From the NCBI GenBank assembly GCA_017538105.1, contig JAFYJN010000065.1:1-57436 (forward strand): a stretch of 57,436 bases of DNA. Direction: 5' to 3'. Source of the stretch: Prevotella sp. Its GTDB lineage: Bacteria > Bacteroidota > Bacteroidia > Bacteroidales > Bacteroidaceae. The translations under genes and the position numbers were made by a program. Shown here piece after piece: positions 1,542 through 53,479 of the stretch (position 1 is the stretch's first letter; each line of letters starts with the position of its first letter). The notes under the pieces were generated by a model. The model was not told the DNA's origin and made no database searches. It worked only from the letters and a program-made list of their open reading frames with translations.

Positions 1542-1568
1542 ACTACGAATTACGCGAATTAGACCGAT
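1542..1568. repeat. Short nonamer array (3 units)
   Basis: Three adjacent 9-base units (actacgaat, tacgcgaat, tagaccgat) lie between the phosphatase and the patatin gene. The unit tacgcgaat recurs in similar surroundings near 2731. I see no other function in this gap. Confidence 0.5.
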
Positions 1569-1601
1569 ACATCACCGTACGTGGTAATGAACATTCCATT
1601 T

Positions 1602-2591
1602 TTATTGTTTTAATTTCATCAGTTGAGGCTTAACTTGACGTGCAGCACGTTCACCCCGCGCAATCATGTCGCTGATGCTCTCCAGTGAGAAGCTCATCAC
1701 GTCGTAGCCCTCCAAGTTCGGCGTAATCAGCACGTCGGCATCGGCACGATTGTCGTTGTGTTTCTTCCAATCCGGGCGTGACACCGCCCAATCGAGTATG
1801 CCACCAATACCCACCAAATCTTTCAGCGAGAAATCGCGGCTCTCGTGTTGTTCATTGCTCAAGTCGATGGCTATCACGATGTCGGCCCCCATGGCACGTA
1901 CCACATCAACAGGCAGGTTATTCATCATGCCACCATCGACCAACGATTTATCGCCCCATTCCACGGCCTTGAAAGCACCGGGGATAGCCATGCTCGCCCG
2001 CATTGCCTTGGCCAACTCGCCCTCCTTGAGCACCACCTCCTCGGGTCCACTGATATCGACAGCCACACACCGGAAGGGGATGGGCAGCGTGTCGAACTGT
2101 ATATACCCCGAGCGGTGCATCATGCTGTCGAGCACCGTCACTATCTGGTCGCCATTGAGCATACCAATCATTGGTCGCTCTCCCTCCTTTCGTTTCTTGC
2201 GTGACACGGGAAACCCGAAGATATACGTCACCCCATCTTCCTCACTCAGCGGCACGTTTTTAAGATCACTCTTTCGGTCGGTGAGCAACGACAGCCACTC
2301 CTGCGAACGGAACAGATGGTCAAGGTCGGCACTGCGGTAACCCACGGCATAGAGACCTCCGACGATGCTTCCGATGCTCGTGCCGGCGATATAGTCGATG
2401 GGGATGCCACATTCCTCTATCACCTTCAGCACCCCTATCTCAGCGGCGCCCTTGGCCCCGCCTCCACCCAGGGCAAGACCTATTTTCGGTCGGTTGGTGG
2501 TCTGTGCTTCAGCGGTGGTAAAGGCCATGAGGGCTGTGAGTGTCAGCACCACGGTGGTTATTATTGTCTTCAGATAACGCTTAATTTCCAT
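1602..2591 (-). CDS. Patatin-like phospholipase, exported
   Basis: 329 residues. An N-terminal hydrophobic segment ending in AEAQ at about residue 30 reads as a signal peptide. The patatin hallmarks are present: glycine-rich oxyanion loop LGGGGAKG (about 41-48), nucleophile elbow GTSIG with Ser near 72, and the DGG motif (LVDGGMMNN) near 217 that supplies the catalytic Asp. Bacterial patatins of this size are Ser/Asp lipid acyl hydrolases. It lacks the C-terminal BamA-like barrel of longer PlpD/BamA-patatin fusions, so it should be a soluble periplasmic enzyme. The 170-base gap upstream separates it from the glycosyltransferase; I see no strong promoter of its own, only a weak TAnnTTTa-like match. 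Confidence 0.88.
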   Translation of the reverse strand: MEIKRYLKTIITTVVLTLTALMAFTTAEAQTTNRPKIGLALGGGGAKGAAEIGVLKVIEECGIPIDYIAGTSIGSIVGGLYAVGYRSADLDHLFRSQEWLSLLTDRKSDLKNVPLSEEDGVTYIFGFPVSRKKRKEGERPMIGMLNGDQIVTVLDSMMHRSGYIQFDTLPIPFRCVAVDISGPEEVVLKEGELAKAMRASMAIPGAFKAVEWGDKSLVDGGMMNNLPVDVVRAMGADIVIAIDLSNEQHESRDFSLKDLVGIGGILDWAVSRPDWKKHNDNRADADVLITPNLEGYDVMSFSLESISDMIARGERAARQVKPQLMKLKQ

Positions 2592-2680
2592 AGGAGAGCT
2601 ATTTTGGGTGCTAAATTACTATTTTTCCCTCAATTCTTTGTCGTTGGGATTGCGAAAAAGTCTAAAGAAAAATTGTTTTT

Positions 2681-2739
2681 TCTACGGATTACTCGGATTT
2701 CATGAATTATCAACTATAAATTACACGAATTACGCGAAA
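2681..2739. repeat. Nonamer array between glycosyltransferase and patatin genes
   Basis: Degenerate 9-base units with a common NACNCGAAT/GGAT core: tctacggat, tactcggat, ttcatgaat, then after a phase break tacacgaat and tacgcgaaa. The unit tacgcgaa(t) is shared with the array at 1542-1568. Confidence 0.5.
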
Positions 2740-2762
2740 AAAGGACATAGAAAACCATGTCC

Positions 2763-3770
2763 CTACACGGGGAGGTCGGAGAAATGCTTGCGGCCTCGGA
2801 TGTAAAACTGCCAAAGGAGGGAGAAGGAGGCAAGGGAGGAGGAGGGAACCTTGGAGGTTGAGGCTGTGCGGAATTCGTGGCGCCATTGTCGGAAAGCGCG
2901 ACGTGCTTGGAATACAGCCTTGCAGTCGGCCCAGTGTCCTTCAAGGAGCAACATTTTCATTGCCGCCACGCGGTCGAGGAACCATCGCCATCGCATGACA
3001 GCAGCGAGGTCATCGTCGGGCAGGTTCTTGTAGAGCATGGTAAGGTTGTTACGGAAATTGAGGAACGTCTTGCGTGAGTTATTTTTCGGCAGCGTGCCTC
3101 CCCCCACATGATAGACATGTGTGGAGGGCAAACAGAATATTTTCTTTCCAGCCAGGCGCATCCGCCAACAGAGGTCAATCTCCTCATTGTGAGCGAAAAA
3201 CCGTCCATCAAAGCCATCAACAGTCCAAAAATCACTGGCTCTCACCAACATACACGCCCCCGTGGCCCAATGAATCTCCAAGGGCGTATCGTATTGTCCC
3301 TGGTCTTTCTCCACCACTTCGAAGAGTCGTCCTCGACAGAAAGGGTATCCCAGTCGGTCGAGGAATCCGCCTGCCGCCCCAGCATATTCAAACGCCCCGT
3401 TGTCGGCCACGGCACGGATTTTGGGTTGCACCGCCGCCACATCGTCATGTTCATCAAGGAAAGCGATGAGTGGCTCCAGCCAATGCGCTGTGACCTCCAC
3501 ATCGGAGTTGAGGAGCATGAAATAGTCGGCATCAACCTGCCGGAGCGCTTTATTGTATCCATCGGCAAAACCATAATTCTGGTCAAGAACGATGGTGCGA
3601 ACCGATGGGAAGTGGTCGGAGAGCCATTGCAAGGAGTCGTCGGAGGAGGCATTGTCCGCCACGATTACCTGTGCCACGTCCTTGGAATGGGTGACTATCG
3701 AGGGTAGGAAACGTTCGAGCATCTTCCGCCCGTTCCAATTAAGTATTACTACCGCTGTATTTTTTTTCAT
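2763..3770 (-). CDS. Glycosyltransferase family 2 (rhamnosyltransferase-like)
   Basis: 335 residues with a GT-A fold signature: VVILNWNGRKMLERFL at the N-terminus, VIVADNASSDDS near 37-48, NYGFADGYN, and LLNSDVEV (DxD-type nucleotide-sugar/metal site) near residue 90. The order and spacing match GT2 enzymes of the WsaF/RfbN-like group that add sugars to surface polysaccharides at the inner membrane. It has no signal peptide and no clear transmembrane helix. The start codon is 21 bases past the mtaB stop, so it is probably the third gene of trmH-mtaB-GT. Acceptor and donor sugars cannot be read from the sequence. Confidence 0.85.
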   Translation of the reverse strand: MKKNTAVVILNWNGRKMLERFLPSIVTHSKDVAQVIVADNASSDDSLQWLSDHFPSVRTIVLDQNYGFADGYNKALRQVDADYFMLLNSDVEVTAHWLEPLIAFLDEHDDVAAVQPKIRAVADNGAFEYAGAAGGFLDRLGYPFCRGRLFEVVEKDQGQYDTPLEIHWATGACMLVRASDFWTVDGFDGRFFAHNEEIDLCWRMRLAGKKIFCLPSTHVYHVGGGTLPKNNSRKTFLNFRNNLTMLYKNLPDDDLAAVMRWRWFLDRVAAMKMLLLEGHWADCKAVFQARRAFRQWRHEFRTASTSKVPSSSLASFSLLWQFYIRGRKHFSDLPV

Positions 3771-3791
3771 TAGTTTATTATGACGGATGAG

Positions 3792-9601: not shown

Positions 9602-10129
9602 TTATCGTACCAGTTCCTTGCGGGCGGTGCCATCGGAGAGGGTGACGATGTTGACGCCCTCAGTGGGTTGGTCGAGTTTAACACCGTCGATAGAATAACG
9701 AGACACTTCAGAAGTAGGGTTGGAGCTATCTACCGACGGAGTTGAGGGATGGGCAGAAGTGGTAGGCGACCCTGAGTATACACCGACTAGAACGTTGGGA
9801 CTGAGGCGGAAGGCCTTGGGCGATATATACACCACCGAGGAGGGTATATACACCCGCGTAGTGTTTTCGGGAATGGCATAGTCGGCGATGGCCAGTGTGC
9901 CTTCCCTGACATAGAAGCCGAAATCGGTGCCATTGGAAAATGCCTTGACCAGCGTGGAGCCATCCTCGGTATAGAGTCCATAAGAAGTGAAAGACACATT
10001 ATGGTAGACTGCCTGTTGCGACAGCACGTCGAAAGGTCCGTACACCCCTCCCCTGTCGTCGATGGGAGCCTGTGCCCATGTGTAAACACCCATGAAGGCA
10101 CCAACAAGGAACATCATTATTTTTTTCAT
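9602..10129 (-). CDS. Exported protein with partial BspA-like repeat and sorting-type C-terminus
   Basis: 175 residues with a clear signal peptide ending at YTWAQA. The middle carries one strand-turn repeat like those of BspA leucine-rich proteins (TTRVYIPSSVVYISPKAF). A Ser/Thr/Pro linker follows (about 122-142), and the last 35 residues (RYSIDGVKL, EGVNIVTLSDGTARKELVR) resemble the C-terminal beta-domain of Prevotella secreted proteins, related to the type IX secretion sorting domains of T9SS substrates. The family assignment is by pattern only. The product is probably surface-exposed or released; its partner is unknown. Confidence 0.6.
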   Translation of the reverse strand: MKKIMMFLVGAFMGVYTWAQAPIDDRGGVYGPFDVLSQQAVYHNVSFTSYGLYTEDGSTLVKAFSNGTDFGFYVREGTLAIADYAIPENTTRVYIPSSVVYISPKAFRLSPNVLVGVYSGSPTTSAHPSTPSVDSSNPTSEVSRYSIDGVKLDQPTEGVNIVTLSDGTARKELVR

Positions 10130-11198: not shown

Positions 11199-11202
11199 AA
11201 AC

Positions 11203-11279
11203 CCACCCCGGCCCTCCCAAAAGAATACCCACCCCTGCCCTCCCGAAAGAATACCCACCCCTGCCCTCCCGAAGGGAGG
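11203..11279 (+). repeat. Three tandem CCCTCCC elements (REP-like)
   Basis: Acccacccc-NN-ccctccc occurs three times with gaaagaat or aaaagaat spacers, the last copy ending in gaagggaggg, which can pair with the preceding ccctccc. This is one of about ten related loci in the window. Confidence 0.75.
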
Positions 11280-11380
11280 GAGAGTTAATTCCTACTTGAA
11301 GATTTTGTACACTTAAGGACTATATCGCCTTTGGAAAGGAGGGGAAAAGATACTACTCCAAGGAAAAGGGAGAAAAAGCT

Positions 11381-11451
11381 TAACAACTAAGAAACTCACC
11401 AACTTATATATTTAACAACTTAGAAACTTAATAACTTAGAAACTTAAAAAT
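11381..11451 (+). repeat. Octamer array directly upstream of the GH3 start codon
   Basis: Eight consecutive 8-base units, all substitutions and no indels: taacaact, aagaaact, caccaact, tatatatt, taacaact, tagaaact, taataact, tagaaact (11381-11444), then taaaaat and the ATG at 11452. The whole 5' leader of the gene is therefore repeat. Confidence 0.8.
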
Positions 11452-14052
11452 ATGAGAACATTTGTGAAAGCGATGATGGTGGCAGCAATGTGTTGGTTGT
11501 CGCAAAGTGGCATTGCCCAGACCTATGCTTACCAGAACCATCAGCTGAGTGCGCATGAACGCGCAGTAGATTTGTGCAGCATGCTTAGTCTTGAAGAGAA
11601 AGCCATGCTGATGCTTGATGAGAGTCCCGCCATCCCCCACTTGGGCATCAAGAAATTCTTTTGGTGGAGCGAGGCGCTGCACGGTGCCGCTAACATGGGC
11701 AACGTGACCGTGTTCCCAGAGCCTATTGCCATGGCATCATCGTGGAACCCCGGTCTGTTGTACCGCGTGTTTGATGTCGCCAGCACCGAGTTTCGTGCCC
11801 AGTACAACGAACGTATGTTCCGTGGCAGTGGGGAGGACGAAAAATTCCACAGTCTGTCTGTATGGACCCCCAACGTAAACATCTTCCGTGACCCCCGTTG
11901 GGGCCGCGGCCAGGAAACCTACGGTGAAGACCCCTACCTCACCTCCGTCATGGGCACGCAGGTGGTGAGGGGCTTGCAGGGTCCCGAAGACGCCAAATAC
12001 CGCAAATTGTGGGCCTGTGCCAAGCACTATGCCGTACACAGCGGTCCCGAATATACCCGCCACAGTGCCAATCTGACCAACGTGTCGCCAAGGGACATGT
12101 GGGAGACTTATATGCCCGCTTTCAAGACATTGGTGCAGGATGCCAAGGTACGTGAGGTAATGTGCGCCTACCAACGTTTGGACGACGACCCCTGTTGTGG
12201 TTCTCAACGTCTGTTGCAGACCATTCTTCGCGACGAGTGGGGTTTCCAGTATCTCGTGGTCAGCGACTGCGGTGCCGTGAGCGATTTCTATGAGTCGCAC
12301 AAGTCATCGTCGGACGCCATCCATGCCAGTGCTAAGGCCGCGTTGGCGGGCACTGACGTGGAGTGCGGCTATGGCTATGCCTACCGCAGCATCCCCGAGG
12401 CTGTGAGACGCGGTTTCATCAGCGAGTCGGAGGTTGACAAACATGTCATCCGCCTTTTGGAAGGCCGTTTCGACCTTGGTGAGATGGACGACCCGTCGTT
12501 GGTGGAGTGGTCGAAGATTCCCTATTCCGTGATGGACTGTAAGGAGCACCGCCAGTTGGCCTTGGACATGGCCAGGCAAACTATTGTCCTGCTGCGCAAC
12601 GAAGGTGGTATTCTTCCTTTGCAAAAGAACAAGGAAAAGATAGCCGTCATCGGTCCCAACGCCGACAACACCCCGATGATGTGGGGCAACTATAACGGTA
12701 TGCCCAACAAGACTGTCAACATTCTTGAAGGCATCAAGTCCATGCAGAAGAAAGTGTTCTACCACCCCGGTTGCGACCTTACCTATGACAAGGTGATGGA
12801 CTGTCTGTTGGATTCCCAATGCAGTTTCGAGGGCAAGAAAGGTATGAAAGGAACCTTCTGGAACAACCGCAAGATGGAAGGCAAACCCGTGACCACGGAA
12901 TACTACACCACCCCCTTGGCCGTCACCACCGCCGGCATGCACAATTTCGCCCCCGGCGTACAATTGGAAGATTTCTCCGCCAAGTATGAAACCGTGTTCA
13001 CCCCGAAGGAGTCGGGCGAGTACGTGGTGAATGTTGACGGTTGCGGCCATTTCGAATTGTACATTGACGGTGAACGCAAGTTCCAGCACCATATCTGGCG
13101 CACCACCCCCAACCGCGTGGCCATTCAAGCCGAGGCCGGCAAGAGTTACAATATCGAGGTTCGTTTCTCGCATATCCATACATACAACGCCAATCTGAAG
13201 ATCAACGTAGCCAAAGAATTGCCCATCGATTACCAACAGGTCATCAGTCAGTTGGACGGCATTGACAAGGTTATCTTCGTTGGCGGTATCTCCCCCGCTT
13301 TGGAAGGTGAGGAGATGCCTGTTGATATTGACGGTTTTAAGGGCGGCGACAGGACGCATATTGAGTTGCCGAAAGTACAACGCGACTTCCTGAAAGCCTT
13401 AAAGGCCGCGGGCAAGCACGTCATCTTCGTGAACTGCTCCGGCTCCGCCATTGCCCTGCTGCCCGAGACCGAGAGTTGTGATGCCATCGTCCAGGCGTGG
13501 TATGCCGGTGAGGAAGGCGGCACAGCCATTGCCGAGGTACTCTTCGGCGATTATAATCCCGAGGGTAAGTTGCCCGTCACCTTCTACAAGAGCAGTAGCC
13601 AGTTGCCCGACTATGAAGACTATTCGATGAAAGGCAGGACGTACCGTTATTTCGATGACCCTCTGTACGCCTTCGGTTATGGTCTGAGTTATACCACCTT
13701 TGCCATCGGCGAGGGGCAGTTGAAGCCATCGCAGAAGAGTGGTGCTTTATATGATTTGGAAGTGCCCGTGACGAACACCGGTCAGCGAGAAGGCGCGGAA
13801 GTTGTCCAAGTCTACATCCGCGACACTTCCGACCAGAACGGTCCATTGAAGTCGCTGAGGGCTTTCCAGAAAGTACAATTGAAGCCCGGGCAGAAAACCA
13901 CGGTCACGCTGACGCTTGACAAGAAGAGTTTTGAGTTCTGGGACGAGGGCACGAACAGCATGCACAGCAAGACCAGCAAGTATGAGATATACTATGGTAC
14001 CAGTTCAAGTGCCAAGGATTTGAAGAGTATGACGGTGCAAGTAAACATTTGA
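11452..14052 (+). CDS. Secreted glycoside hydrolase family 3 with PA14 insertion (beta-xylosidase/beta-glucosidase type)
   Basis: 866 residues. Signal peptide about 1-22 (ends GIAQ). The GH3 N-domain contains the family pattern up to LVVSDCGAVSDF, with the nucleophile Asp at about residue 272. The GH3 C-domain is split by a PA14-like insertion (about 460-590: GTFWNNRKMEG, ESGEYVVNVDGCGHFELYID), and a fibronectin III-like domain ends the protein. This architecture is that of the Prevotella Xyl3-type enzymes, which release xylose from xylooligosaccharides, although glucosidases share it. It stands alone, without SusC/SusD partners. A hairpin terminator follows at 14074. Confidence 0.9.
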   Translation: MRTFVKAMMVAAMCWLSQSGIAQTYAYQNHQLSAHERAVDLCSMLSLEEKAMLMLDESPAIPHLGIKKFFWWSEALHGAANMGNVTVFPEPIAMASSWNPGLLYRVFDVASTEFRAQYNERMFRGSGEDEKFHSLSVWTPNVNIFRDPRWGRGQETYGEDPYLTSVMGTQVVRGLQGPEDAKYRKLWACAKHYAVHSGPEYTRHSANLTNVSPRDMWETYMPAFKTLVQDAKVREVMCAYQRLDDDPCCGSQRLLQTILRDEWGFQYLVVSDCGAVSDFYESHKSSSDAIHASAKAALAGTDVECGYGYAYRSIPEAVRRGFISESEVDKHVIRLLEGRFDLGEMDDPSLVEWSKIPYSVMDCKEHRQLALDMARQTIVLLRNEGGILPLQKNKEKIAVIGPNADNTPMMWGNYNGMPNKTVNILEGIKSMQKKVFYHPGCDLTYDKVMDCLLDSQCSFEGKKGMKGTFWNNRKMEGKPVTTEYYTTPLAVTTAGMHNFAPGVQLEDFSAKYETVFTPKESGEYVVNVDGCGHFELYIDGERKFQHHIWRTTPNRVAIQAEAGKSYNIEVRFSHIHTYNANLKINVAKELPIDYQQVISQLDGIDKVIFVGGISPALEGEEMPVDIDGFKGGDRTHIELPKVQRDFLKALKAAGKHVIFVNCSGSAIALLPETESCDAIVQAWYAGEEGGTAIAEVLFGDYNPEGKLPVTFYKSSSQLPDYEDYSMKGRTYRYFDDPLYAFGYGLSYTTFAIGEGQLKPSQKSGALYDLEVPVTNTGQREGAEVVQVYIRDTSDQNGPLKSLRAFQKVQLKPGQKTTVTLTLDKKSFEFWDEGTNSMHSKTSKYEIYYGTSSSAKDLKSMTVQVNI

Positions 14053-14758: not shown

Positions 14759-14778
14759 TATTTTGTTAGGAAATTAGG

Positions 14779-14828
14779 ATAACCTAGGATTTTTTAGGAT
14801 GACCTAGGATAGTTTAGGAAAACCTATG
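14779..14828. repeat. Decamer array
   Basis: Five 10-base units in perfect register: ataacctagg, attttttagg, atgacctagg, atagtttagg, aaaacctatg. It occupies the gap between the start of the HD gene and the end of the next minus-strand gene. Confidence 0.75.
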
Positions 14829-15629: not shown

Positions 15630-15953
15630 ATGAAAATTATCCGCAATAGATTCCTCCCGCTGAAGCGTTTTGATGCGATGAACCTGTTCGGCGTGCTTTT
15701 CTGCCACCGCGACACGCGTTTGACGCCCGAGCTGATCAATCACGAGCGCATCCACACCCATCAAATGCTGGAGATGCTGGTGGTGGGGTTCTACCTGTGG
15801 TATGTGACAGAATGGTTGATTCGTCTGTTCAAACGGGGCAATGCCTATTTCAACATCGGTTTTGAACGCGAGGCGTATCGGCACATGCACGATTTGGAAT
15901 ATTTGAAGAATCGTAAGCATTTTGCGTGGTGGAAGGAAATGATGAAACATTAA
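15630..15953 (+). CDS. Small membrane protein with HExxH motif, putative minimal metallopeptidase-like protein
   Basis: 107 residues starting MKIIRNRFLP. The motif NHERIHTHQ gives HExxH at 38-42. A hydrophobic helix follows at once (MLVVGFYLWYVTEWLIRLF, about 50-67), and an acidic helix comes later (FEREAYRH, 78-85) that could supply a third Glu ligand. The layout resembles the zinc site of M56/M48-like membrane peptidases, but the protein is far shorter than any such enzyme, so it may be a zinc-binding protein or an inactive relative. The open frame extends upstream to 15522, but the promoter lies inside that extension, which fixes the start at 15630. Confidence 0.75.
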   Translation: MKIIRNRFLPLKRFDAMNLFGVLFCHRDTRLTPELINHERIHTHQMLEMLVVGFYLWYVTEWLIRLFKRGNAYFNIGFEREAYRHMHDLEYLKNRKHFAWWKEMMKH

Positions 15954-16014
15954 AAGATTAAAAGATTTAAAAATTAAAAGATTAAAAAATTAGATAATTA
16001 AAAGACTTCAGAAC
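15951..16014 (+). repeat. Octamer array starting at the stop codon of the HExxH gene
   Basis: Eight 8-base units in register: taaaagat twice, ttaaaaat, taaaagat, taaaaaat, tagataat, taaaagac, ttcagaac. The TAA stop codon at 15951-15953 is the first three bases of unit 1. Confidence 0.8.
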
Positions 16015-19568: not shown

Positions 19569-19611
19569 GTTTGTGAGTTTGTGAGTTTATATGATTTTGT
19601 TTATTTGTTAT

Positions 19612-19737
19612 AGACGCTATAGGAGAGATAGAAGCTATAGTTGGAATAGACGCTATAGGAGAGATAGATGCTATAGTGGAGATAGTAATTATAGTGGTGA
19701 TAGGCACTATAGGATATATAGCAATAATAGTGGAGCT
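19612..19737. repeat. 14-unit nonamer array between tetR and fabG
   Basis: Fourteen 9-base units of the form AGnnnnnAT in unbroken register, for example agacgctat, aggagagat, agaagctat, agttggaat, agtggagat, aggatatat. The pair agacgctat-aggagagat occurs twice. The array begins next to the tetR stop codon. Because 9 is a multiple of 3 it stays open on the minus strand, but its product would be a simple Ile/Ser/Pro repeat with no start context. Confidence 0.85.
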
Positions 19738-19738
19738 A

Positions 19739-28442: not shown

Positions 28443-28450
28443 TGTATAAT

Positions 28451-28618
28451 GTTTAGTGTACAGTGTTTAGGGTTGAGTGTACAGTGTTTAGGGTTGAGTG
28501 TACAGTGTTTAATGTTTAGTGTACAGTGTTTAATGTTTAGTGTACAGTGTTTAGGGTTGAGTGTACAGTGTTTAATGTTTAGTGTATAGTGTTTAAGGTT
28601 GAGTGTACGTTGGGGTTG
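28451..28618. repeat. Heptamer array, 23 or more units
   Basis: Unbroken 7-base register of variants gtttagt, gtacagt, gtttagg, gttgagt, gtttaat, often as the ordered trio gttgagt-gtacagt-gtttagg. Only substitutions separate the units. The array fills the space between the two GYF-CD225 paralogues. Because 7 is not a multiple of 3, the stop codon TAG/TAA in the units occurs in every reading frame. Confidence 0.9.
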
Positions 28619-28623
28619 GAGTA

Positions 28624-30735: not shown

Positions 30736-30740
30736 AAAAA

Positions 30741-30773: not shown

Positions 30774-30795
30774 GATGAATAGAAGGGAAGGGAAG

Positions 30796-30843
30796 AGTAA
30801 AAAGGTAAAAAGGTAAAAAAGTAAAAAAGTAAAAGGGTAAAAA
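30796..30843. repeat. Octamer array, 6 units
   Basis: agtaaaaa, ggtaaaaa, ggtaaaaa, agtaaaaa, agtaaaag, ggtaaaaa in register. The same unit family reappears at 32146 and 32252. Confidence 0.8.
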
Positions 30844-32141: not shown

Positions 32142-32145
32142 GAAA

Positions 32146-32177
32146 GGTAAAAAAGTAAGAGGGTAAAAAAGTAAAAA
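32146..32177. repeat. Octamer array after the C1B peptidase gene
   Basis: ggtaaaaa, agtaagag, ggtaaaaa, agtaaaaa in register, directly followed by a CCCTCCC element. Confidence 0.75.
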
Positions 32178-32234
32178 AATACCCACCCTTGGCCCTCCCA
32201 AAATACCCACCCTGACCCTCCCCAAGGGAGGGGA
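32178..32234 (+). repeat. Two CCCTCCC elements in tandem
   Basis: atacccacccttggccctccc, then atacccaccctgaccctccccaagggagggg. The second has a self-complementary end. Confidence 0.7.
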
Positions 32235-32251
32235 AATGAATGGATGAAGAG

Positions 32252-32291
32252 GGTAAAAAGGTAAAAGGGTAAAAAAGTAAAATGGTGAAAA
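32252..32291. repeat. Octamer array after the CCCTCCC pair
   Basis: ggtaaaaa, ggtaaaag, ggtaaaaa, agtaaaat, ggtgaaaa in register; same family as 30796 and 32146. A CCCTCCC pair is thus sandwiched between two blocks of one octamer family. Confidence 0.75.
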
Positions 32292-32365
32292 GTGAAGAAT
32301 TTTGGGTGAAAGATTTTTCACTTTTCACTATTTACAATTTTCACCATTAACACTAAAAAAGCTAT

Positions 32366-33199: not shown

Positions 33200-33305
33200 G
33201 CAACGGGATATTTGCGTTAATAATGTTTAACAACGCAGATATATCATTTTTTTTTCTTAACTTTACACGCCATTTTATGCACCATGCGAAAATGGCGTGC
33301 TTTAT

Positions 33306-33353
33306 ATACCCACCCCGACCCTATACCCACCCCGACCCACCCAAAGGGAGGGA
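33306..33353 (+). repeat. CCCTCCC-type element, degenerate tandem
   Basis: atacccaccccgaccctatacccaccccgacccacccaaagggaggg. A purine run follows (33344-33422). Confidence 0.6.
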
Positions 33354-33458: not shown

Positions 33459-35186
33459 ATGCATTTTAAATGGAATTACGAACCCCCTACACCCGAGCAG
33501 AAGAGAGCAGCTAAGGAACTGGCTGAGAAGATTGGCATGAGTCCTTTGCTTGCCCAATTGCTTATCCGGCGCGGCATTACTACCGAATCGGCAGCCAAAC
33601 GGTTTTTCCGTCCTCAGTTGGCTGACCTGATTAACCCCTTCCTGATGAAGGACATGGATGTGGCGGTAGACCGTTTGAACGACGCGATGGGCCGCAAGGA
33701 GCGCATTTTGGTGTATGGCGACTACGACGTGGATGGTTGCACCGCCGTAGCGTTGGTCTATAAATTTCTGCAACAGTTTTATTCAAACATCGACTACTAC
33801 ATCCCCGACCGTTACGACGAGGGATACGGTGTCAGTCGCAAAGGCATTGAGTACGCCAAGGAAACCGGTGTCAAATTGGTCATCATCCTTGACTGTGGCA
33901 TCAAGGCCATAGAAGAGATTGCGTATGCCAAGGAAGAAGGCATCGACTTCATTATCTGCGACCACCATGTGCCCGACGAGGAGATGCCTCCTGCCGTTGC
34001 CATCCTCAACCCCAAGCGCGAGGACGACAGTTACCCCTTCAAGCAGTTGTGCGGTTGCGGTGTGGGGTTCAAATTTATGCAAGCCTTTGCCAAGAACAAC
34101 AGCATCCCCTTTTCCCGTCTCATCCCACTGTTGGACTTCTGTGCTGTGAGTATCGCCGCCGACCTGGTTCCCGTGACCGACGAGAACCGCATCTTGGCCT
34201 ACCATGGTCTGAAGCAGCTGAACCAAAATCCCAACATTGGTCTGAAAGCCATCATCGACATCTGCGGACTGAACGGCCGTGAGATAGCGATGAGCGATAT
34301 CATCTTCAAGATTGGTCCGCGCATCAACGCTTCCGGGCGTATGGAGAATGGCAAGGAGAGTGTGGATTTGCTGATAGAGCGCGACTTCGCCGTTGCGTTG
34401 AGCAAGGCGAGTCACATCAACCAATACAACGAGCAGCGCAAGGACATCGACAAGCAGATGACCGAAGAGGCCAACCAAATCGTGTCGAAGTTGGAGAGTC
34501 AGAAACATCGTTCAAGTATCGTGCTTTATGATGAGAACTGGAAGAAAGGCGTCATCGGCATCGTAGCCTCCCGTCTCACTGAGATCTATTTCCGTCCTAC
34601 CGTTGTATTGACGCGTGACGCCGAATTTGCCACGGGCAGTGCCCGCAGTGTGGCCGGTTTCGATGTCTATGCCGCCATCAAGAGCTGTCGCGACCTGTTG
34701 TTGAACTTCGGCGGCCACACCTACGCTGCCGGTCTGACGTTGCGTTGGGACGACATCAAGGAGTTCCGCCAGCGTTTCCAACGTTATGTCGATGAGCATA
34801 TCCTCCCCGACCAGAAGGAAGCGATACTCGACATCGACGCCGTTGTTGATTTCAAGGACATCAATTCGAAACGTCTGCATAATGACCTGAAGCGTTTCGC
34901 CCCCTTTGGTCCCGGCAACGAGAAACCCCGTTTCTGCACCGTCGGCGTATACGATTTCGGCACCAGCAAGGTGGTGGGACGCGACCAGGAACACATCAAA
35001 CTGGAGTTGGTTGATTCGAAGTCGAACAACGTCATGAACGGCATCGCTTTCGGTCAGAGTGCCGCAGCCCGCTACATCAAGTCACACCGCAGTTTTGACA
35101 TCGTCTACACCATGGAAGACAATATATTCAAGCACGGCAACATCCAGTTACAGATAGAAGACATCCGTCCGACGGATGAGGGATGA
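33459..35186 (+). CDS. recJ: Single-stranded-DNA-specific exonuclease RecJ
   Basis: 575 residues, usual length. DHH phosphoesterase motifs: VYGDYDVDGCTA (motif I), LDCGIKA (II), CDHHVPDEEMP (III). DHHA1 and OB-fold parts follow, with the GGHTYAAGLTL motif near 420. It digests single-stranded DNA 5'-3' in recombination and repair. It lies just before recQ, its partner in RecFOR-type recombination, separated by a heptamer-rich gap. The last codons (GATGAGGGATGA) are also the first units of that repeat. Confidence 0.95.
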   Translation: MHFKWNYEPPTPEQKRAAKELAEKIGMSPLLAQLLIRRGITTESAAKRFFRPQLADLINPFLMKDMDVAVDRLNDAMGRKERILVYGDYDVDGCTAVALVYKFLQQFYSNIDYYIPDRYDEGYGVSRKGIEYAKETGVKLVIILDCGIKAIEEIAYAKEEGIDFIICDHHVPDEEMPPAVAILNPKREDDSYPFKQLCGCGVGFKFMQAFAKNNSIPFSRLIPLLDFCAVSIAADLVPVTDENRILAYHGLKQLNQNPNIGLKAIIDICGLNGREIAMSDIIFKIGPRINASGRMENGKESVDLLIERDFAVALSKASHINQYNEQRKDIDKQMTEEANQIVSKLESQKHRSSIVLYDENWKKGVIGIVASRLTEIYFRPTVVLTRDAEFATGSARSVAGFDVYAAIKSCRDLLLNFGGHTYAAGLTLRWDDIKEFRQRFQRYVDEHILPDQKEAILDIDAVVDFKDINSKRLHNDLKRFAPFGPGNEKPRFCTVGVYDFGTSKVVGRDQEHIKLELVDSKSNNVMNGIAFGQSAAARYIKSHRSFDIVYTMEDNIFKHGNIQLQIEDIRPTDEG

Positions 35187-35228
35187 GGGAGAATTGAAGG
35201 TTGAGGGTTTAGGGTTTAGGGATTAGTG
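35174..35228 (+). repeat. Heptamer array between recJ and recQ
   Basis: ggatgag, ggatgag, ggagaat, then ttgaggg, tttaggg, tttaggg, attag. The first two units overlap the last recJ codons and the stop. Confidence 0.65.
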
Positions 35229-42421: not shown

Positions 42422-43465
42422 TTAGTTGTTTTCGGGACGAAGCTTACGCACTGTTTCTGCGGCACGCCACATCTCTTTGTTGCGCATGGCCTCCAGTTCC
42501 TTATTGAGGTTTTCGCGATAGTCGGGTTTTGAGTTGCTGTCGATGGAGATTTGCGCCTCGGTACCATTCTGCACGGAGAGGTAAAGCCATTCCATGACCG
42601 GTTTGATGGCTTCACGGAATCGCGGTGCCCAGTCGAGGGCGCCACGCTGTGCCGTGGTGGAGCAGTTGGCATACATCCAGTCCATTCCCTTCTCTGCGAA
42701 GAGCGGGCCAAGACTCTGTGTCAGTTCCTCCACTGTCTCGTTGAACGCTTCTGAGGGTGAGTGGCCGTGTTCGCGGAGCACCTCATACTGTGCTTCGAGC
42801 AGTCCCTCGATGGCTCCCATGAGTGAGCCACGCTCGCCGGTGAGGTCAGATGTAGCCTCACGCTCGAAGGTGGTCTTGAAGAGATAGCCAGCACCGATGC
42901 CGATACCAAAGGCGATGGTTTTCTCCTCTGCCTTGCCTGTAGCATCTTGGTAGACTGCATAGGAGCAGTTCAGTCCACGTCCTTCGAGGAACATCGTGCG
43001 GAGCGATGTGCCCGAACCTTTTGGAGCAACGAGGATGACGTCGATATCCTCTGGCGGCACCACGCCCGTGCGGTCGTTCCAGTTGATGGCGAAGCCATGC
43101 GAGTAATATAATGTCTTACCTTTGGTGAGGTGCGGTTTAATTTTCGGCCATGCCTGAATCTGTCCCGCATCGGAGAGCAGCATACATACGATGGTACCTT
43201 TCTCTGCAGCCTCTTCGATGGAGAAGAGCGTCTTTCCGGGCACCCATCCGTCGGCCACGGCCTTCTCGTAGGTCTTTCCTTCACGCTGTCCAACGATGAC
43301 GTTGAAGCCGTTGTCGCGCAGGTTGCATGCCTGTCCAGGGCCTTGGATACCGTATCCGATGACCGCTATTGTTTCGTTTTTGAGCACTTCACGTGCTTTC
43401 TCCAAAGAGAACTCTTTACTGGTGACCACCGTTTCGATGACACCGCCGAAATTCATTTCTGCCAT
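42422..43465 (-). CDS. ilvC: Ketol-acid reductoisomerase (NADP+)
   Basis: 347 residues. N-terminal Rossmann domain with VIGYGIQGPGQACNLRD (the GxGxxGxxxG site), then CMLLSDAGQIQAWPK and SHGFAINW, and a knotted C-domain with FERE and GLLEAQYE, all typical of class I IlvC. It converts acetolactate to 2,3-dihydroxy-isovalerate in valine/leucine synthesis (and the isoleucine analogue). It has its own promoter at 43593 and a leader of about 120 bases, so it need not follow the operon upstream. Confidence 0.95.
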   Translation of the reverse strand: MAEMNFGGVIETVVTSKEFSLEKAREVLKNETIAVIGYGIQGPGQACNLRDNGFNVIVGQREGKTYEKAVADGWVPGKTLFSIEEAAEKGTIVCMLLSDAGQIQAWPKIKPHLTKGKTLYYSHGFAINWNDRTGVVPPEDIDVILVAPKGSGTSLRTMFLEGRGLNCSYAVYQDATGKAEEKTIAFGIGIGAGYLFKTTFEREATSDLTGERGSLMGAIEGLLEAQYEVLREHGHSPSEAFNETVEELTQSLGPLFAEKGMDWMYANCSTTAQRGALDWAPRFREAIKPVMEWLYLSVQNGTEAQISIDSNSKPDYRENLNKELEAMRNKEMWRAAETVRKLRPENN

Positions 43466-43592
43466 TTTTTAATATTTTTGGGAGTTAAAGGGGGAGTTAA
43501 AATAACTCTTTAAACCTATGTTAATACTATTGTTAGACGCTACCATTATATAACGGCAAGCTATTTGTTTGATTTTGTTTGAAAAATCGGGT

Positions 43593-43624
43593 GCAAAGTT
43601 ACAAATTATTACCGAAACGGCAAA
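43593..43624 (-). promoter_or_regulatory. Promoter of ilvC
   Basis: Minus-strand -33 TTTG (43621-43624) and -7 TAACTTTGC (43593-43601) are 19 bases apart: a good consensus. Confidence 0.7.
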
Positions 43625-43642
43625 AATAATTATGGATTTTTC

Positions 43643-43666
43643 AGGAGTTTGGGAGTTTAGGAGTTT
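43643..43666. repeat. Short octamer array between the thioesterase and ilvC
   Basis: aggagttt, gggagttt, aggagttt in register, followed by ggacaatacc. Confidence 0.5.
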
Positions 43667-43723
43667 GGACAATACCTATGGGGAGGTTAGCACATCACTA
43701 TAGAGTGAGACAAATATGAATAA

Positions 43724-44500
43724 CTACTTAAATTGCGTAAACAGCATCCTGCTTCTTGCCACCTCTACTTCGGGTTGTTCTGCCGATGCTTGTGCCGTGA
43801 TGCGTATGGAGAAGTCGTCAGGTTCGTTTTCACATCGATAGAACCGGAGTATCTCTCCCTCGTGCGCCTCTGCTACGTAAGCAATCTCGAACCGCTGGAG
43901 AAAATGTTGACGGTACCAGTCGAGGTTGAAGAGGTCGAGCACATGTTCGATGTATTTGATACTGTTGACATGGCAGTTGATGTCGATGTCATCGTAGGAT
44001 GCCTTCACCTCTGCTACAAGCGTGGCTGTGTCGGTAATCCTAACCCTGGAGCTTTTGTCTATGGGACAATCCAACTCCTTGGTGACATAGTTAGCGATGT
44101 CGCCGTCGTGAATCTCCATGAGGTTGACGGGCTGTCGCGTCTCCGTGTCAATCATCGCCCATACCGAGCGGCCGTAACCATATACCTTCCCCGTAGATTG
44201 TTCTTCGACTTTGAAATTACGGTTGGTGAAATAGCGCATGGCATTTTCCACCCACGTATAGACGAAGAAACGGTCGTAAGCCTTGGGCATCTCCACCATT
44301 TCGACAGCAAGGCGTGAGAGCACCCACGTCTTGTTGATGGTGTTGAGGTAGTTCATGCCGAATCCCCGGTCGTTGGAATGGAAATCGGCCGCATTGAGCA
44401 GGTGATTTCCCAGATGTCCCATAAACAGATGTTTTTGGAAATCGCAGTGGAACGGCTCCGCCATGAACGGGTATTTCCCTATCTTACTCAATTGTTCCAT
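43724..44500 (-). CDS. Acyl-ACP thioesterase
   Basis: 258 residues: a double-hotdog thioesterase as in the plant FatA/FatB and bacterial TE families. Motifs seen: FHCDFQKHLF at the start, NYLNTINKTWVLSRLAVE, DINCHVNSIKYIEHVLD (catalytic Asn/His region). It releases fatty acids from ACP in the cytoplasm. Its start overlaps ilvN by 17 bases, so it is translationally coupled to the branched-chain amino acid genes, which fits a role with branched fatty acids, though this link is inferred. Confidence 0.87.
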   Translation of the reverse strand: MEQLSKIGKYPFMAEPFHCDFQKHLFMGHLGNHLLNAADFHSNDRGFGMNYLNTINKTWVLSRLAVEMVEMPKAYDRFFVYTWVENAMRYFTNRNFKVEEQSTGKVYGYGRSVWAMIDTETRQPVNLMEIHDGDIANYVTKELDCPIDKSSRVRITDTATLVAEVKASYDDIDINCHVNSIKYIEHVLDLFNLDWYRQHFLQRFEIAYVAEAHEGEILRFYRCENEPDDFSIRITAQASAEQPEVEVARSRMLFTQFK

Positions 44501-45035
44501 TTGTGTTCTTCTCCTGTTCGTCCAAGAATTCGCTTACCGACTCGACAAAACTTCGGGTGATGGCTATGCGTCCGCTGCGCGTGTACTGCAACAGGCATCC
44601 AAAAGCATCGAGTTTATAATATAAGTTGGTGATATCCTCCGTCATGCCACCCAGCATGACCGCCGTATAGGTTGGGTTCACTTCGAGCACGCGGGCATCG
44701 TTGCGGCGTATGGTGCGTGATATCTCCGGGTTTTCCAATACCTTGTCGGTAGATAGTTTATAGAGCGCCACCTCCTGAATGAAAAGTTGATCGTCGGTGT
44801 AGTAATTCGCTTTCACCACATCGATTTTCTTCTCTATCTGTTTGGTGATTTTCTGTATCTGGTCTTCGTCGCTCCATGCCGTGATGGTATATTTGTGAAT
44901 GCCCTTGATGGACGACGCTGACACGTTGAGGCTTTCAATGTTCACCTGTCGTCGGGTGAACACCGCCGTGATTTGGTTGAGTATGCCCGCCACATTCTCA
45001 GAGAAGACGAGCAGGGTGTATAGTTTTTTTTCCAT
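44484..45035 (-). CDS. ilvN: Acetolactate synthase small (regulatory) subunit
   Basis: 183 residues with an N-terminal ACT domain (LYTLLVFSENVAGILNQITAV then VNIESLNVSAS) and a C-terminal ALS_ss_C part. The small subunit gives valine feedback and activates the large subunit, whose gene ends 194 bases upstream. The gap contains octamers of the AAGTTAAG type. The gene overlaps the thioesterase by 17 bases. Confidence 0.92.
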   Translation of the reverse strand: MEKKLYTLLVFSENVAGILNQITAVFTRRQVNIESLNVSASSIKGIHKYTITAWSDEDQIQKITKQIEKKIDVVKANYYTDDQLFIQEVALYKLSTDKVLENPEISRTIRRNDARVLEVNPTYTAVMLGGMTEDITNLYYKLDAFGCLLQYTRSGRIAITRSFVESVSEFLDEQEKNTNGTIE

Positions 45036-45055
45036 TTCTTATATCTTCACGTTTA

Positions 45056-45079
45056 TGAAGTTAAGAAGTTAAGAAGTTA
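45056..45079. repeat. Octamer array between ilvB and ilvN
   Basis: gaagttaa, gaagttaa, gaagttat in register; gaagttaaaagccaatacc follows at 45098. The motif gaagttaagccaatacc also ends the array at 53440. Confidence 0.6.
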
Positions 45080-45229
45080 TTGCGGCTTTGGCCGCTCTGA
45101 AGTTAAAAGCCAATACCCCAGTCCGATGGTAATTGTTAGACAGTAGCCATCAAAGTCCGGGTGAAAACATATGGCTTAACTCCTTTAACTTCTTTTAATT
45201 CAATAACTTCAGAAATCACGAAAAGTGAG

Positions 45230-46930
45230 TTATATCTCAAGCATCATGTCATCGACGTTGAGTCCCGGCGGGGTCATGGGCAGCACATCGTCGTCTTCGC
45301 GTATGGCACATTCGAGGATATAGGGACCTTTCGTATCCAGCATCTTCTCCACGGCCTCATCAAGATTTGCCCGGTCAATGACCACCTCGTAAGGAATGCC
45401 ATATCCCTGCGCGATATGTTGATACGACGGGTTCATCATCCGGGTGAAAGACTTCCTTTTGTTCCAGAACATATCCTGCCACTGACGGACATTTCCGAGA
45501 TAGTTGTTGTTGAGCAGAATCATTTTTATCGGGGCCTGCTGTTCCATGATGGTACCCAACTCCTGGATGCACATCTGGAAGCCACCGTCGCCCATAAAGC
45601 AACATATCGTACGTTCAGGCGCTCCGAAAGAGGCACCGATGGCCGCTGGCATGCCATATCCCATGGTGCCCAGTCCACCGCTCGTGCAGATACTTCTATT
45701 ACGCAGGAATTTGAAATAGCGTGTGGCGAAGAGTTGGTTCTGTCCCACATCGGTGACGAGCACCGCCTCTCCGTTTGTAGCCTCCGCCACCACGTTCACC
45801 ACCTCGCCCATGAGCAGCGGTCCTTCCTTGGGATGTATGGCCGGTTCGATGACCTTCACCCGTTCTTTTTCCATCAGCGGTTTGAACGAGTCGCGCCACG
45901 GCTGGTGATTGGCCACCCTGATCAATCGAGTGATGGCTGGCAGTGACACCTTACAATCGGCAATGACAGCCACGTCGGTTTTCACGTTCTTGTCAATCTC
46001 ACTCTCATCGATGTCAAGATGGATGACTTTCGCCTGTTTAGCATAAGTATTGAGGTTGCCCGTCACCCGGTCGCTGAACCTCATGCCGATAGCGATGAGC
46101 ACGTCGCACTCCTGTTCCTTGATGTTTGGCGCATAGTTGCCGTGCATGCCCAGCATGCCCATGTTGAGCGGATGGTTCGACGGCATGGCACTCAGTCCGA
46201 GCATCGTGCGTGCCGCCGGTATGTCACCTTTTTCGAGGAAAGCCATCAGTTCTTGCTGCGCATGTCCCAGTTCCACCCCCTGCCCCACGAGAGCCAACGG
46301 TCGCTGAGCGTTATTGATGAGTTCCGCTGCCTGCTCCACCGCCGTTTCATTGAGTTTGGGGTATGCCACATAGGAACGCACCATATCGACATTACATGGA
46401 ACAAAATCAACCATTTCCGTCTGTGCATTTTTCGGGAAGTCGAGCACCACGGGTCCCGGTCGTCCGCTGCGCGCGATGTAGAACGCCCGGCTCACCGCCC
46501 ATGCGATGTCGTCGGCATGGCGTATCTGATAACTCCATTTTGATATCGGCTGGGCCACACCCACAAGGTCAACCTCCTGGAAGGCATCCGTACCCAATGC
46601 GTTCACACCCACCTGTCCGGCGATGACCACGATGGGGGTGGAGTCCATCATGGCATCAGCCACTCCCGTGAGCGTGTTCGTTGCCCCGGGGCCGCTGGTG
46701 ACGAGGCATACGCCCACTTCACCGGAGACCCTTGCGAATCCTTCGGCGGCATGTGCTGCCCCTTGTTCATGTCGTACTAGGATATGGTCAAACGCCTTTT
46801 TCGCTCCTCGCGTGTAGTCGAAGAGTGCGTCATAGACTGGCATGATGGCACCACCAGGGTATCCGAAGATGGTTTTCACCCCTTCATGTTTGAGAGCCAT
46901 CATCATTGCTTCAGAACCTTTTACTTTCAT
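45230..46930 (-). CDS. ilvB: Acetolactate synthase large subunit
   Basis: 566 residues from MKVKGSEAMM. ThDP-enzyme domains: N-terminal PYR part with the catalytic Glu near residue 50, GYPGGAIMPVYD, FAD/central part, and C-terminal PP part with GDGGFQMC and NNNYLGNVRQWQ (ThDP motif). It condenses pyruvate to acetolactate. The frame stays open 12 codons further up, but that extension is the translated CCCTCCC repeat and is not part of the protein. Part of ilvD-B-N. Confidence 0.95.
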   Translation of the reverse strand: MKVKGSEAMMMALKHEGVKTIFGYPGGAIMPVYDALFDYTRGAKKAFDHILVRHEQGAAHAAEGFARVSGEVGVCLVTSGPGATNTLTGVADAMMDSTPIVVIAGQVGVNALGTDAFQEVDLVGVAQPISKWSYQIRHADDIAWAVSRAFYIARSGRPGPVVLDFPKNAQTEMVDFVPCNVDMVRSYVAYPKLNETAVEQAAELINNAQRPLALVGQGVELGHAQQELMAFLEKGDIPAARTMLGLSAMPSNHPLNMGMLGMHGNYAPNIKEQECDVLIAIGMRFSDRVTGNLNTYAKQAKVIHLDIDESEIDKNVKTDVAVIADCKVSLPAITRLIRVANHQPWRDSFKPLMEKERVKVIEPAIHPKEGPLLMGEVVNVVAEATNGEAVLVTDVGQNQLFATRYFKFLRNRSICTSGGLGTMGYGMPAAIGASFGAPERTICCFMGDGGFQMCIQELGTIMEQQAPIKMILLNNNYLGNVRQWQDMFWNKRKSFTRMMNPSYQHIAQGYGIPYEVVIDRANLDEAVEKMLDTKGPYILECAIREDDDVLPMTPPGLNVDDMMLEI

Positions 46931-50490: not shown

Positions 50491-50539
50491 GCATGAAGGA
50501 GCAAGGGGCAAGAAGCAAGGAGCAAGGGATTAGAGGAAT
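50491..50539. repeat. Heptamer array, 7 units, in the cobU leader
   Basis: gcatgaa, ggagcaa, ggggcaa, gaagcaa, ggagcaa, gggatta, gaggaat in register. They run from just after the promoter to 16 bases before the ATG. Confidence 0.75.
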
Positions 50540-51140: not shown

Positions 51141-51156
51141 GAAATAGTGTATAAGT

Positions 51157-51226
51157 GAACACTAAACACTCAACACTAAACACTAAACACTAAACACTCA
51201 ACACTAAACGCTCAACACTAAACAAT
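51157..51226 (+). repeat. Heptamer array upstream of cobT
   Basis: Ten units in register: gaacact, aaacact, caacact, aaacact three times, caacact, aaacgct, caacact, aaacaat. The family is the reverse complement of the gtgttta/gtgttga family at 28451. The ATG of cobT follows after 6 bases. Confidence 0.85.
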
Positions 51227-51232
51227 CAAGAA

Positions 51233-53069: not shown

Positions 53070-53076
53070 CCCCTTA
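53059..53076 (+). repeat. Truncated CCCTCCC element at the cobS stop
   Basis: acctccccctaacccctt supplies the last codons and stop of cobS, and its right half is replaced by the octamer array that starts at 53077. Confidence 0.6.
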
Positions 53077-53332
53077 GTTGTTTGGTCGTTTGGTCGTTTA
53101 GTTGTTTGGTCGTTTGGTCGTTTGGGCGTTTAGTCGTTTAGTTGTTTGGTCGTTTAGTTGTTTGGTCGTTTGGGCGTTTGGGCGTTTAGTCGTTTAGTTG
53201 TTTGGTCGTTTAGTTGTTTGGTCGTTTGGTCGTTTGGTCGTTTGGTTGTTTGGTTGTTTAGTTGTTTGGTCGTTTAGTTGTTTGGCTGTTTGGTTGTTAA
53301 GTTGATTAGCTGTTTGGCTGTTTGGTTGTTAA
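53077..53332 (+). repeat. 32-unit octamer array
   Basis: 256 bases in perfect 8-base register: gttgtttg, gtcgtttg, gtcgttta, ggcgttta, gctgtttg, gttgttaa and similar. All 32 units keep the length and differ by single substitutions at positions 2-3 and 8. It fills most of the gap between cobS and blaI. The rest of that gap (53333-53551) holds the blaI promoter and a second octamer array. Confidence 0.95.
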
Positions 53333-53363
53333 ATTCATTAAAAACTACTTAATTTTATTTAAT

Positions 53364-53403
53364 AACTAATCTTTTTAGTTGATTACATAAATACTTTTAG
53401 TTA
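53364..53403. promoter_or_regulatory. Candidate BlaI-type operator region
   Basis: AACTAA (53364-53369) and TTAGTT (53375-53380) form an inverted repeat; cttttagtta recurs at 53394-53403, about two helical turns on and overlapping the promoter. Suggestive only. Confidence 0.35.
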
Positions 53404-53410
53404 TATTTGC
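53402..53410 (+). promoter_or_regulatory. -7 promoter element of blaI
   Basis: TATATTTGC matches TAnnTTTGC; the leader of about 135 bases contains the octamer array at 53440. Confidence 0.6.
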
Positions 53411-53439
53411 ACTCGATAAGACGCGCAATGATTGAATAA

Positions 53440-53479
53440 GTAGTTAAGGAGTTAAGAAGTTAAGGAGTTAAGAAGTTAA
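53440..53479 (+). repeat. Octamer array in the blaI leader
   Basis: gtagttaa, ggagttaa, gaagttaa, ggagttaa, gaagttaa in register, then gccaatacc. The same ending follows the gaagttaa units at 45098. Confidence 0.8.

Follow-up and report, generated by a model that had tools for sequence, protein, structure and literature searches.

Tandem arrays of mostly 7- and 8-nucleotide units in gene gaps and open reading frames of Prevotella genomes

Among the long simple sequence repeats of prokaryotes, which have units above 4 nt, heptamers are the most abundant, and in a 2007 survey (Mrazek et al.), as retold in later papers, they were the most abundant long repeats (units of 5-11 nt) in most genomes (PMC4679880, PMC4060949, PMC4692102). 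A polymerase contact of 7 nt was proposed for this preference, an idea of the same survey as retold (PMC4679880), whereas repeats with 1-3-nt units are suppressed in prokaryotes, for which mismatch repair was proposed (PMC4679880, PMC4692102, PMC4060949). Dispersed heptamer families are described from Xanthomonas, Nostoc and Beggiatoaceae (PMC4679880, PMC4692102), and a 2025 survey of 1-9-nt units placed the Bacteroidota among the bacterial phyla with high repeat density (PMC12699852). Here we analyzed a contig of 57,436 nt from Prevotella sp. (GenBank assembly GCA_017538105.1, contig JAFYJN010000065.1), called the window in its whole length. A reading made from its letters alone (the sequence-only reading) had reported arrays of 7-, 8-, 9- or 10-nt units in the gaps between genes and had ascribed them to one generating process. 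The arrays were found to recur in the sampled genome and in 80 relatives, to differ between close species and to lie also in open reading frames; taken together, these features suggest sequence copying that has run out of control more than a system of regulation.

The heptamer excess in bacteria is already in print, and the over-representation against shuffled sequence that marks long simple sequence repeats was found here for periods 7-10 (periods 1-6 together gave 8 arrays). In contrast to the repeats described so far, the units within one Prevotella array differ by substitutions, single genomes have amplified particular families, the unit at one locus changes from species to species and arrays of 7-nt units are found in open frames of genes. 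The GGGAATC and GGGGA(C/T)T arrays of Xanthomonas and Nostoc also lie between genes, are dispersed in one genome and reach 26 units, but there a single G-rich unit type with quadruplex potential was studied (PMC4692102), while Prevotella has many units, 8-mers among them, and carries them within genes too. The TAACTGA repeats of Beggiatoaceae and five Bacteroidetes are likewise lineage-specific heptamers, many of them close upstream of start codons (PMC4679880). They consist of one unit mostly just upstream of the start, whereas the many Prevotella units have no fixed orientation: in co-directional gaps the G-rich strand was the sense strand in 75 arrays, the antisense strand in 71 and intermediate in 31. 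Borg tandem repeats are fast-evolving and genome-specific, lie in gaps and genes and give repeated peptides, but their coding units are perfect and divisible by three (PMC9879509); the 7-nt Prevotella unit occurs in variants and, passing through all three phases, would give a peptide period of 7 residues. BrickBuilt of Porphyromonas gingivalis, a minisatellite within a miniature inverted-repeat transposable element (MITE), is a dispersed tandem repeat of the Bacteroidales as well, and its 23-nt unit has a leader, a tail and inverted ends (PMC4596501), whereas the one Prevotella family tested has no shared ends. No account of these arrays in Prevotella was found in literature searches (open-licence papers, judged by titles and the beginnings of abstracts), nor did the literature searched yield a description of 7-nt arrays that are apparently translated and have different units in different species.

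The assembly has 3.6 Mb in 102 contigs and a listed contamination of 5.5%. From it 704 kb were sampled (∼20% of the genome; 80 kb intergenic and 617 kb coding), together with 1466 kb from 80 named relatives picked by CobT similarity (125 kb intergenic, 1339 kb coding). Among named relatives the nearest are bins of rumen Prevotella, and the CobT of RGIG7570 (water buffalo omasum) was 90% identical. Arrays were searched with Tandem Repeats Finder (TRF) and with a stricter ungapped detector, and genes were called with a custom hexamer-based script instead of a standard caller. Gaps above 1500 nt or below 20 nt were dropped, and since the detector was run on gaps, an array reaching into a gene was clipped at the gene border. 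The sequences L038 and L118-L122 (G and L numbers are our own labels) overlap and come from the same genome; L038 was excluded from the 79-relative counts and from the tests of unit sharing, border words, border motifs and inverted neighbors, and was kept in those of orientation, stop content, skew and in-frame stops and in the 80-relative period counts.

The strict detector found 16 arrays with periods of 7-10 in the window, spread over 14 of its 38 gaps; dinucleotide shuffling of these gaps, repeated 100 times, gave a mean of 0.17 and at most 2. Many gaps carry arrays, as had been reported, though the strict count remains below the "about twenty" given. TRF returned 37 rows of period 7-10 (overlapping rows counted), 34 of them with 0% indels. 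This agrees with the remark that units rarely differ by indels, but the accompanying argument that this is unusual for slippage is weak, because TRF penalizes indels above mismatches and both detectors favor indel-free arrays. The intergenic arrays of the genome comprised 37 of period 7, 41 of period 8, 26 of periods 9-10 and 8 of periods 1-6; the 80 relatives gave 86, 44, 20 and 4. Periods 7-10 thus stood against periods 1-6 at 104 to 8 in the genome and 150 to 4 in the relatives, while one shuffle of each intergenic set left 1 array of period 7-10. The lower edge of the spectrum at 7 nt is sharp, and the proposal of one process with a preferred unit length is upheld in that 7 and 8 dominate and 1-6 are nearly absent in genome and relatives alike. 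A second, smaller peak was seen at 20-24 nt (15 intergenic arrays in the genome, 36 in the relatives).

Arrays of periods 7-8 were biased towards intergenic DNA, with 78 in 80 kb of gaps versus 10 in 617 kb of genes in the genome, and 130 in 125 kb versus 111 in 1339 kb in the relatives. Spectrum and density recur in the 80 relatives and are sporadic outside the genus. Within the genus, small samples held from 0 to more than 30 arrays per 10 kb, the top two values resting on 1.1 kb of gaps each. In other families of the phylum, 16 genomes gave 16 arrays, predominantly 7-mers, in 46 kb of gaps; 12 of these genomes had none, and 10 of the arrays lay in one genome. In other families of the order, 9 of 10 genomes had none and G033 had 3 in 1.3 kb of gaps. 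In the count by period, from which the phylum figure comes, stretches below 15 kb were skipped in both groups (4 of 20 phylum genomes and 3 of 10 order genomes, G033 being one of the latter); the figure for the 10 order genomes is from a separate count. A sample of E. coli K-12 held 0 arrays in 13 kb of gaps. In 4.5 kb of gaps, the sequence L235 (G268, another family of the same class) contained 10 arrays with periods of 7-10, which makes it a second array-rich lineage beyond Prevotella.

The arrays were densest in co-directional gaps (20.6 per 10 kb in the genome and its sister species G019, 18.1 in the relatives), followed by convergent gaps (13.4 and 7.1) and divergent gaps (5.5 and 3.7). 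Their reported position at gene borders was confirmed: among 122 arrays in co-directional gaps of the relatives, 28 began 0 nt, and 45 no more than 3 nt, after the upstream stop codon. The role of stop-codon screens, which had been suggested, was not borne out. The absence of a strand preference relative to transcription speaks against it, the G-rich strand being presumably the one with the stops, and the fraction of units with a stop on some strand exceeded that of letter-shuffled units for 7-nt units (0.91 versus 0.69 in the genome and G019, 0.93 versus 0.83 in the relatives) but not for 8-nt units (0.73 versus 0.76 and 0.83 versus 0.78). Stop-codon content was rejected on these grounds as the organizing principle. 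Since arrays were found upstream of, downstream of and inside genes, insulating leaders and recombination sites are not supported as general roles either. The mean absolute G/C strand skew was 0.88 in the arrays of the genome and 0.73 in those of the relatives, compared to 0.31 and 0.28 in other intergenic pieces; an asymmetry of this strength would also keep RNA unstructured, so that selection on structure may play a part.

The window was compared with G019 by aligned blocks. Ten of the 12 long blocks were 89.8-96.3% identical, and the blocks around cobU and around cobT-cobS were 83.7 and 85.9% identical. Between these related sequences the arrays had changed in several ways. The array in the gap 28442-28624 measured 157 nt in the window and 57 nt in G019, and the sequence between aligned blocks at the recJ end 113 and 17 nt. 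In the gap 45035-45230 the family differed, G019 having a GGAGTTTR-type array with GGACATTACC, and in the G019 gap matching 43465-43724 one array had been duplicated locally together with its flank. Copy number, family and presence of arrays all differ between close species, in support of the sequence-only reading. Where the window has the array 53077-53330, the G019 gap (L121 3287-3814) contains a 175-aa gene that scored as cobC, alpha-ribazole phosphatase (176 bits, cut-off 162.9). The G019 CobC protein had no match in the whole genome of the window, in a search run without a positive control. From the gene at the G019 locus and the missing match here we infer that the longest array of the window probably stands in place of a lost cobC. 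In L038, from the sister species, much of the sequence of the cobU-cobT gap (9785-10036), arrays included, is repeated after cobS (11837-12136).

All arrays had been described as lying outside coding regions. This holds for the window, where the genes contained no array of period 5-14 by the strict detector (TRF at a lower threshold gave a few weak 6- and 9-nt rows), but it fails beyond the window. Arrays were also met in the coding sequence of the genome, 8 with period 7 and 2 with period 8, one of them before a VQFHPEV motif, which is typical of glutamine amidotransferases. The called genes of the relatives held 107 arrays of period 7, as against 32 of periods 6, 9 or 12, and 93 of the 107 lay more than 60 nt from both gene ends; as the relatives share orthologous genes, the 107 are not independent. 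The clearest series was in cobT, where a period-7 array was detected at nt 635-720 of the gene in 21 of the 80 relatives. The stretch falls between HKYEVLSKAV and RYFGGFEM, and its peptides vary by species (LSPLTSHLSPL, STLNSQLSTL, LKSQTSNLK, HSTFHTPHSTL). CobT was 346-357 aa long in 43 of 58 aligned sequences (57 of the 80 relatives and the window; range 341-387), and in a second alignment of 39 sequences L213-F251 (numbering of the first sequence) had zero invariant columns. Against the Thermus CobT the stretch coincides with a 10-residue alignment gap. An AlphaFold model of the L074 CobT had a mean predicted local distance difference test score (pLDDT) of 87 and matched solved CobT folds. 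The model places the array stretch, at a pLDDT of 72-78, where one helix ends and the next begins; as several other blocks were equally low, the model neither proves nor excludes a floppy loop.

The coding arrays seem to have been adjusted to their frames. In 126 coding arrays of period 7, 8, 10 or 11 from the relatives, the genome and G019, perfect versions would contain 26 in-frame stop sites. These were altered in 26 of 26 cases, a figure that is partly definitional because only open frames are called as genes, and out-of-frame sites were altered in 10 of 82. The contrast indicates that units are changed where they would place a stop in frame, and translation would, judging from the open frames, proceed through the arrays.

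The arrays of period 6-12 showed 138 distinct units in 212 arrays. A likeness of some units to telomere repeats was seen by eye and dropped as a lead. No single heptamer family dominated the genome, in which the 42 arrays with 7-nt units (20% sampled) had 22 distinct units, the commonest in 7. Certain units nevertheless turn up in many genomes, and in some genomes a single unit has been multiplied. Of 200 genomes of the genus, 68 had an exact 18-nt CTCTCAC pattern, with as many as 41 overlapping matches in one genome, as did 4 of 197 other Bacteroidota; 8 of 20 places examined (15 in G006 and 5 in G018, among the matches listed) were in genes. The corresponding TTCCACA pattern occurred in 7 of the 200, with at least 15 places in G014 (at least 28 matches) and 5 in G041, and had zero exact matches in the other 193. 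Of 20 places examined (15 in G014, 5 in G041, among the matches listed), 11 were in called genes, sense or antisense. Conserved flanking ends were not found for this family at the 15 listed G014 places: mean flank identity was 0.27-0.29 adjoining the array and 0.25-0.27 in the next 14 nt outward, and 1 of 105 left-flank pairs exceeded 0.7. One unit at 15 or more places with unrelated flanks, yet present in 7 of 200 congeners, makes local slippage alone insufficient. G009 had 23 matches to one heptamer pattern, and G010, an assembly of 3 contigs, had 19 exact matches to one, though its 60-kb sample was without an array of period 7-10. The reversed control of an AACTCTC search proved to be the same family read backwards and was no control. 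In IMG/VR viral contigs, one heptamer pattern was met in 16 stretches.

Several features at the borders of the arrays were examined. The motif GACA[AT]TAC was present in 9 of 90 array gaps of the genome and in 5 of 335 other gaps (p = 0.0005); it was weaker in 79 relatives (5 of 119 versus 7 of 597, p = 0.03) and not significant in G019 (3 of 15 versus 2 of 36). It occurs beside AGTT- and AAGATAAAG-type sequence. GACA[AT]TAC or CCAATACC was also noticed after AGTTT and AGTTAA arrays (window 43667 and 53481, other gaps and some other species). On the C-rich strand, TATT or TAAT forms a leader to some arrays. TATTG adjoined 13 of 128 intergenic arrays of the genome and G019, and CTATT 11 of 106 coding arrays of the relatives, with 1.8 expected in either case. 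As a rule the TATT leader was rejected, since it did not appear among the words enriched at the 136 arrays in gaps of the relatives. At least two pairs of G006 places, among the matches listed, share longer upstream flanks by eye, and 68 of 425 gaps of the genome (30 with arrays) form a linked group joined largely by a hairpin-like CCCTCCCAAAGGGAGGG/ACCCACCCCGACCCTCCCAAAGGGAGGG piece, found in the window at 11201-11285, 30737-30775, 33305-33350 and other places. Same-unit neighbors were inverted in 5 of 18 close pairs in the relatives and 0 of 5 in the genome, and hairpins of inverted arrays were rejected as a rule on these counts. An inverted 10-nt piece of the unit lay within 80 nt of 0 of 88 arrays in the genome and 8 of 229 in the relatives. 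No match to the Y1 transposase associated with repetitive extragenic palindromes (REP) was found in the genome, while 5 of 14 control genomes matched.

MutS domains were present in 24 of 24 genomes, with at least two matches in 20. The domain scored strongly in the genome of the window and in the array-rich G006 and G014, the latter two with two matches each. Loss of mismatch repair was rejected as the cause, as these counts, together with G009, which showed the weak-scoring domain only, gave no rule. The genome of the window (G000) had a single, strong-scoring MutS_V match, and a MutS2-like gene may be missing from it.

We lean, with some reserve, towards a lineage-enriched and mostly neutral process that generates the arrays by duplication of 7 nt or more and by genome-specific spread of families, and that is tolerated in unconstrained DNA and restrained by selection where the sequence matters. 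The arrays would be started and stretched by slippage or tandem duplication in steps of at least ∼7 nt, and shorter steps would leave almost none, perhaps through removal of short loops by mismatch repair; this source, the escape from repair and the neutrality we infer. In some genomes one unit family has been multiplied to many unrelated sites without flanks, a spread that exceeds the duplication of whole segments. The arrays occur where constraint is low, as in co-directional gaps, at gene ends, in the probable place of a lost gene and in a variable protein stretch, and less so in divergent gaps; within genes they occupy open frames, with a unit apparently altered where an in-frame stop would arise. 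Their turnover is fast, near relatives differing in copy number and farther ones in the unit itself. Several results weigh against this account. The ratio of period 7 to period 8 was 107:4 in genes and 80:38 in gaps of 79 relatives (Fisher p = 9e-9), a difference that persists when only units readable without stops are counted. G-only or C-only units made up 0.66-0.76 of the intergenic units, compared to 0.38-0.41 of random pieces, and plain slippage would not account for this avoidance of units with both G and C. Units of period 7 were shared between genomes at 3.8%, as against 0.35% by composition (∼10x, inflated by shared orthologous arrays), so unit sequence matters to the process. Within genomes, the excess of same-unit pairs was modest after thinning of neighbors (period 7: 66 versus 41.7 expected, reached by 152 of 2000 label shuffles; period 8: 39 versus 22.0, reached by 20 of 2000), the unthinned count having looked stronger. 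Individual genomes outside the family have dense arrays as well, G009, with its many pattern matches, has a weak-scoring MutS domain only, the shared borders (GACA[AT]TAC, TATT) of a minority of arrays hint at a defined element, and the 26 of 26 altered stop sites are in part a product of gene calling.

Purely local replication slippage, with arrays born in place and 7 nt favored by polymerase contact, would agree with the heptamer excess reported in many bacteria (PMC4679880, PMC4692102), with same-site arrays of sister species that resemble copy-number variants and with the array and flank duplicated locally in G019; we regard it as unlikely, given the G014 unit at unrelated places without an exact match in most congeners and the excess sharing of units. 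An active writing process, such as repair copying or a telomerase-like RNA template, that inserts genome-specific 7-nt arrays at unrelated sites appears no more probable than this; if true, it would also hit conserved enzymes in frame, each lineage overwriting the same stretch with its own repeat word. Small mobile elements of MITE or REP type with minisatellites inside them, as in BrickBuilt, are a still more doubtful source. The enriched GACA[AT]TAC border, the longer flanks common to G006 pairs, the gap group linked by the hairpin-like piece and the inverted neighbors in the relatives are what such elements would leave, but the 15 listed G014 places lack shared flanks, inverted unit pieces are rare near arrays, the Y1 transposase was not found in the genome and the units are very diverse. 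That the arrays are functional spacers, unstructured and stop-rich leaders or insulators under selection, we consider quite improbable. Their concentration in co-directional gaps, where they touch stop and start codons, their G/C asymmetry and some excess of stop-bearing 7-nt units would fit, whereas strands are unbiased, arrays are missing or swapped in orthologous gaps, and genes contain them too. An assembly artefact of metagenome bins is barely conceivable: most of the genomes are bins, and the present one is listed with contamination, but CobT and two further genes contain arrays in Prevotella sp. ne3005 (L078), whose record is not marked as a bin and which we take to be an isolate, the 3-contig G010 has its exact heptamer matches despite the array-free sample, and reading frames are open across many arrays.

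These genomes offer a natural dense case for the old unexplained bacterial preference for 7-nt repeats, in which the lower edge at 7, one family at many places without shared flanks and non-triplet arrays in frames of core enzymes are all displayed. Orthologous stretches form a comparative record for measuring array birth, spread and decay. The arrays are also a warning for work with bins of rumen Prevotella, in which the lengths of gaps, the ends of genes and the variable parts of proteins are unstable and easily misannotated.

The individual arrays of the window were located as follows, and TRF recovered those at the positions named before with one weak case, 2681, where it gave only 2.2 copies at 2719-2738. 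On the + strand, an 8-nt array AACTTAGA/AACTTAAC (11374..11450, the TRF range also) lies just upstream of a glycoside hydrolase family 3 gene, whose ATG is at 11452. A degenerate 10/20-nt array TAGGATAACC at 14774..14826 (TRF only, 14775-14826; unstranded) is followed by the 8-nt array ATTAAAAG on the + strand at 15945..16005, which includes the stop codon 15951-15953. An unstranded 9/18/36-nt array ATAGAAGCT at 19610..19735 was seen by TRF only (19609-19685, period 9, with 18 and 36). The unstranded 7-nt array at 28443..28608 (TRF 28450-28606) has ∼22 units and a higher-order structure of 21/42/63 nt. Three 8-nt arrays of the GGTAAAAA family lie on the + strand at 30797..30843, 32143..32178 and 32250..32292. 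The families had been said to be shared between sites, and they are: AAACACT is the canonical unit at 28451 and 51158, and AAAAAGGT occurs at 30797, 32146 and 32250. The 7-nt arrays GGATGAG and GGTTTAG (35174..35226, + strand) overlap the recJ end and begin in its last codons; at 15951, the position named in the sequence-only reading is that of the stop codon itself.

In the remaining part of the window, an unstranded 8-nt array (GGAGTTTR)3 followed by GGACAATACC lies at 43644..43676 and another, TTAAGAAG, at 45053..45079. Upstream of cobU there is a 7-nt array AAGGAGC (50496..50527, + strand; same range by TRF), and between cobU and cobT a 7/14-nt array AACACTA/AACACTC (51158..51229, + strand; TRF 51158-51224, period 7). 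Arrays ending at the next start codon had been noted, and those near 11447 and 51224 indeed stop a few bases short of one. The longest array of the window, the 8-nt GTTTGGTC with ∼31 units, occupies 53077..53330 on the + strand, in the same limits by TRF. It is followed, also on the + strand, by an 8/16-nt array TAAGAAGT/TAAGGAGT (53437..53488; TRF 53437-53480, period 8), which runs to 53480 and continues into CCAATACC.

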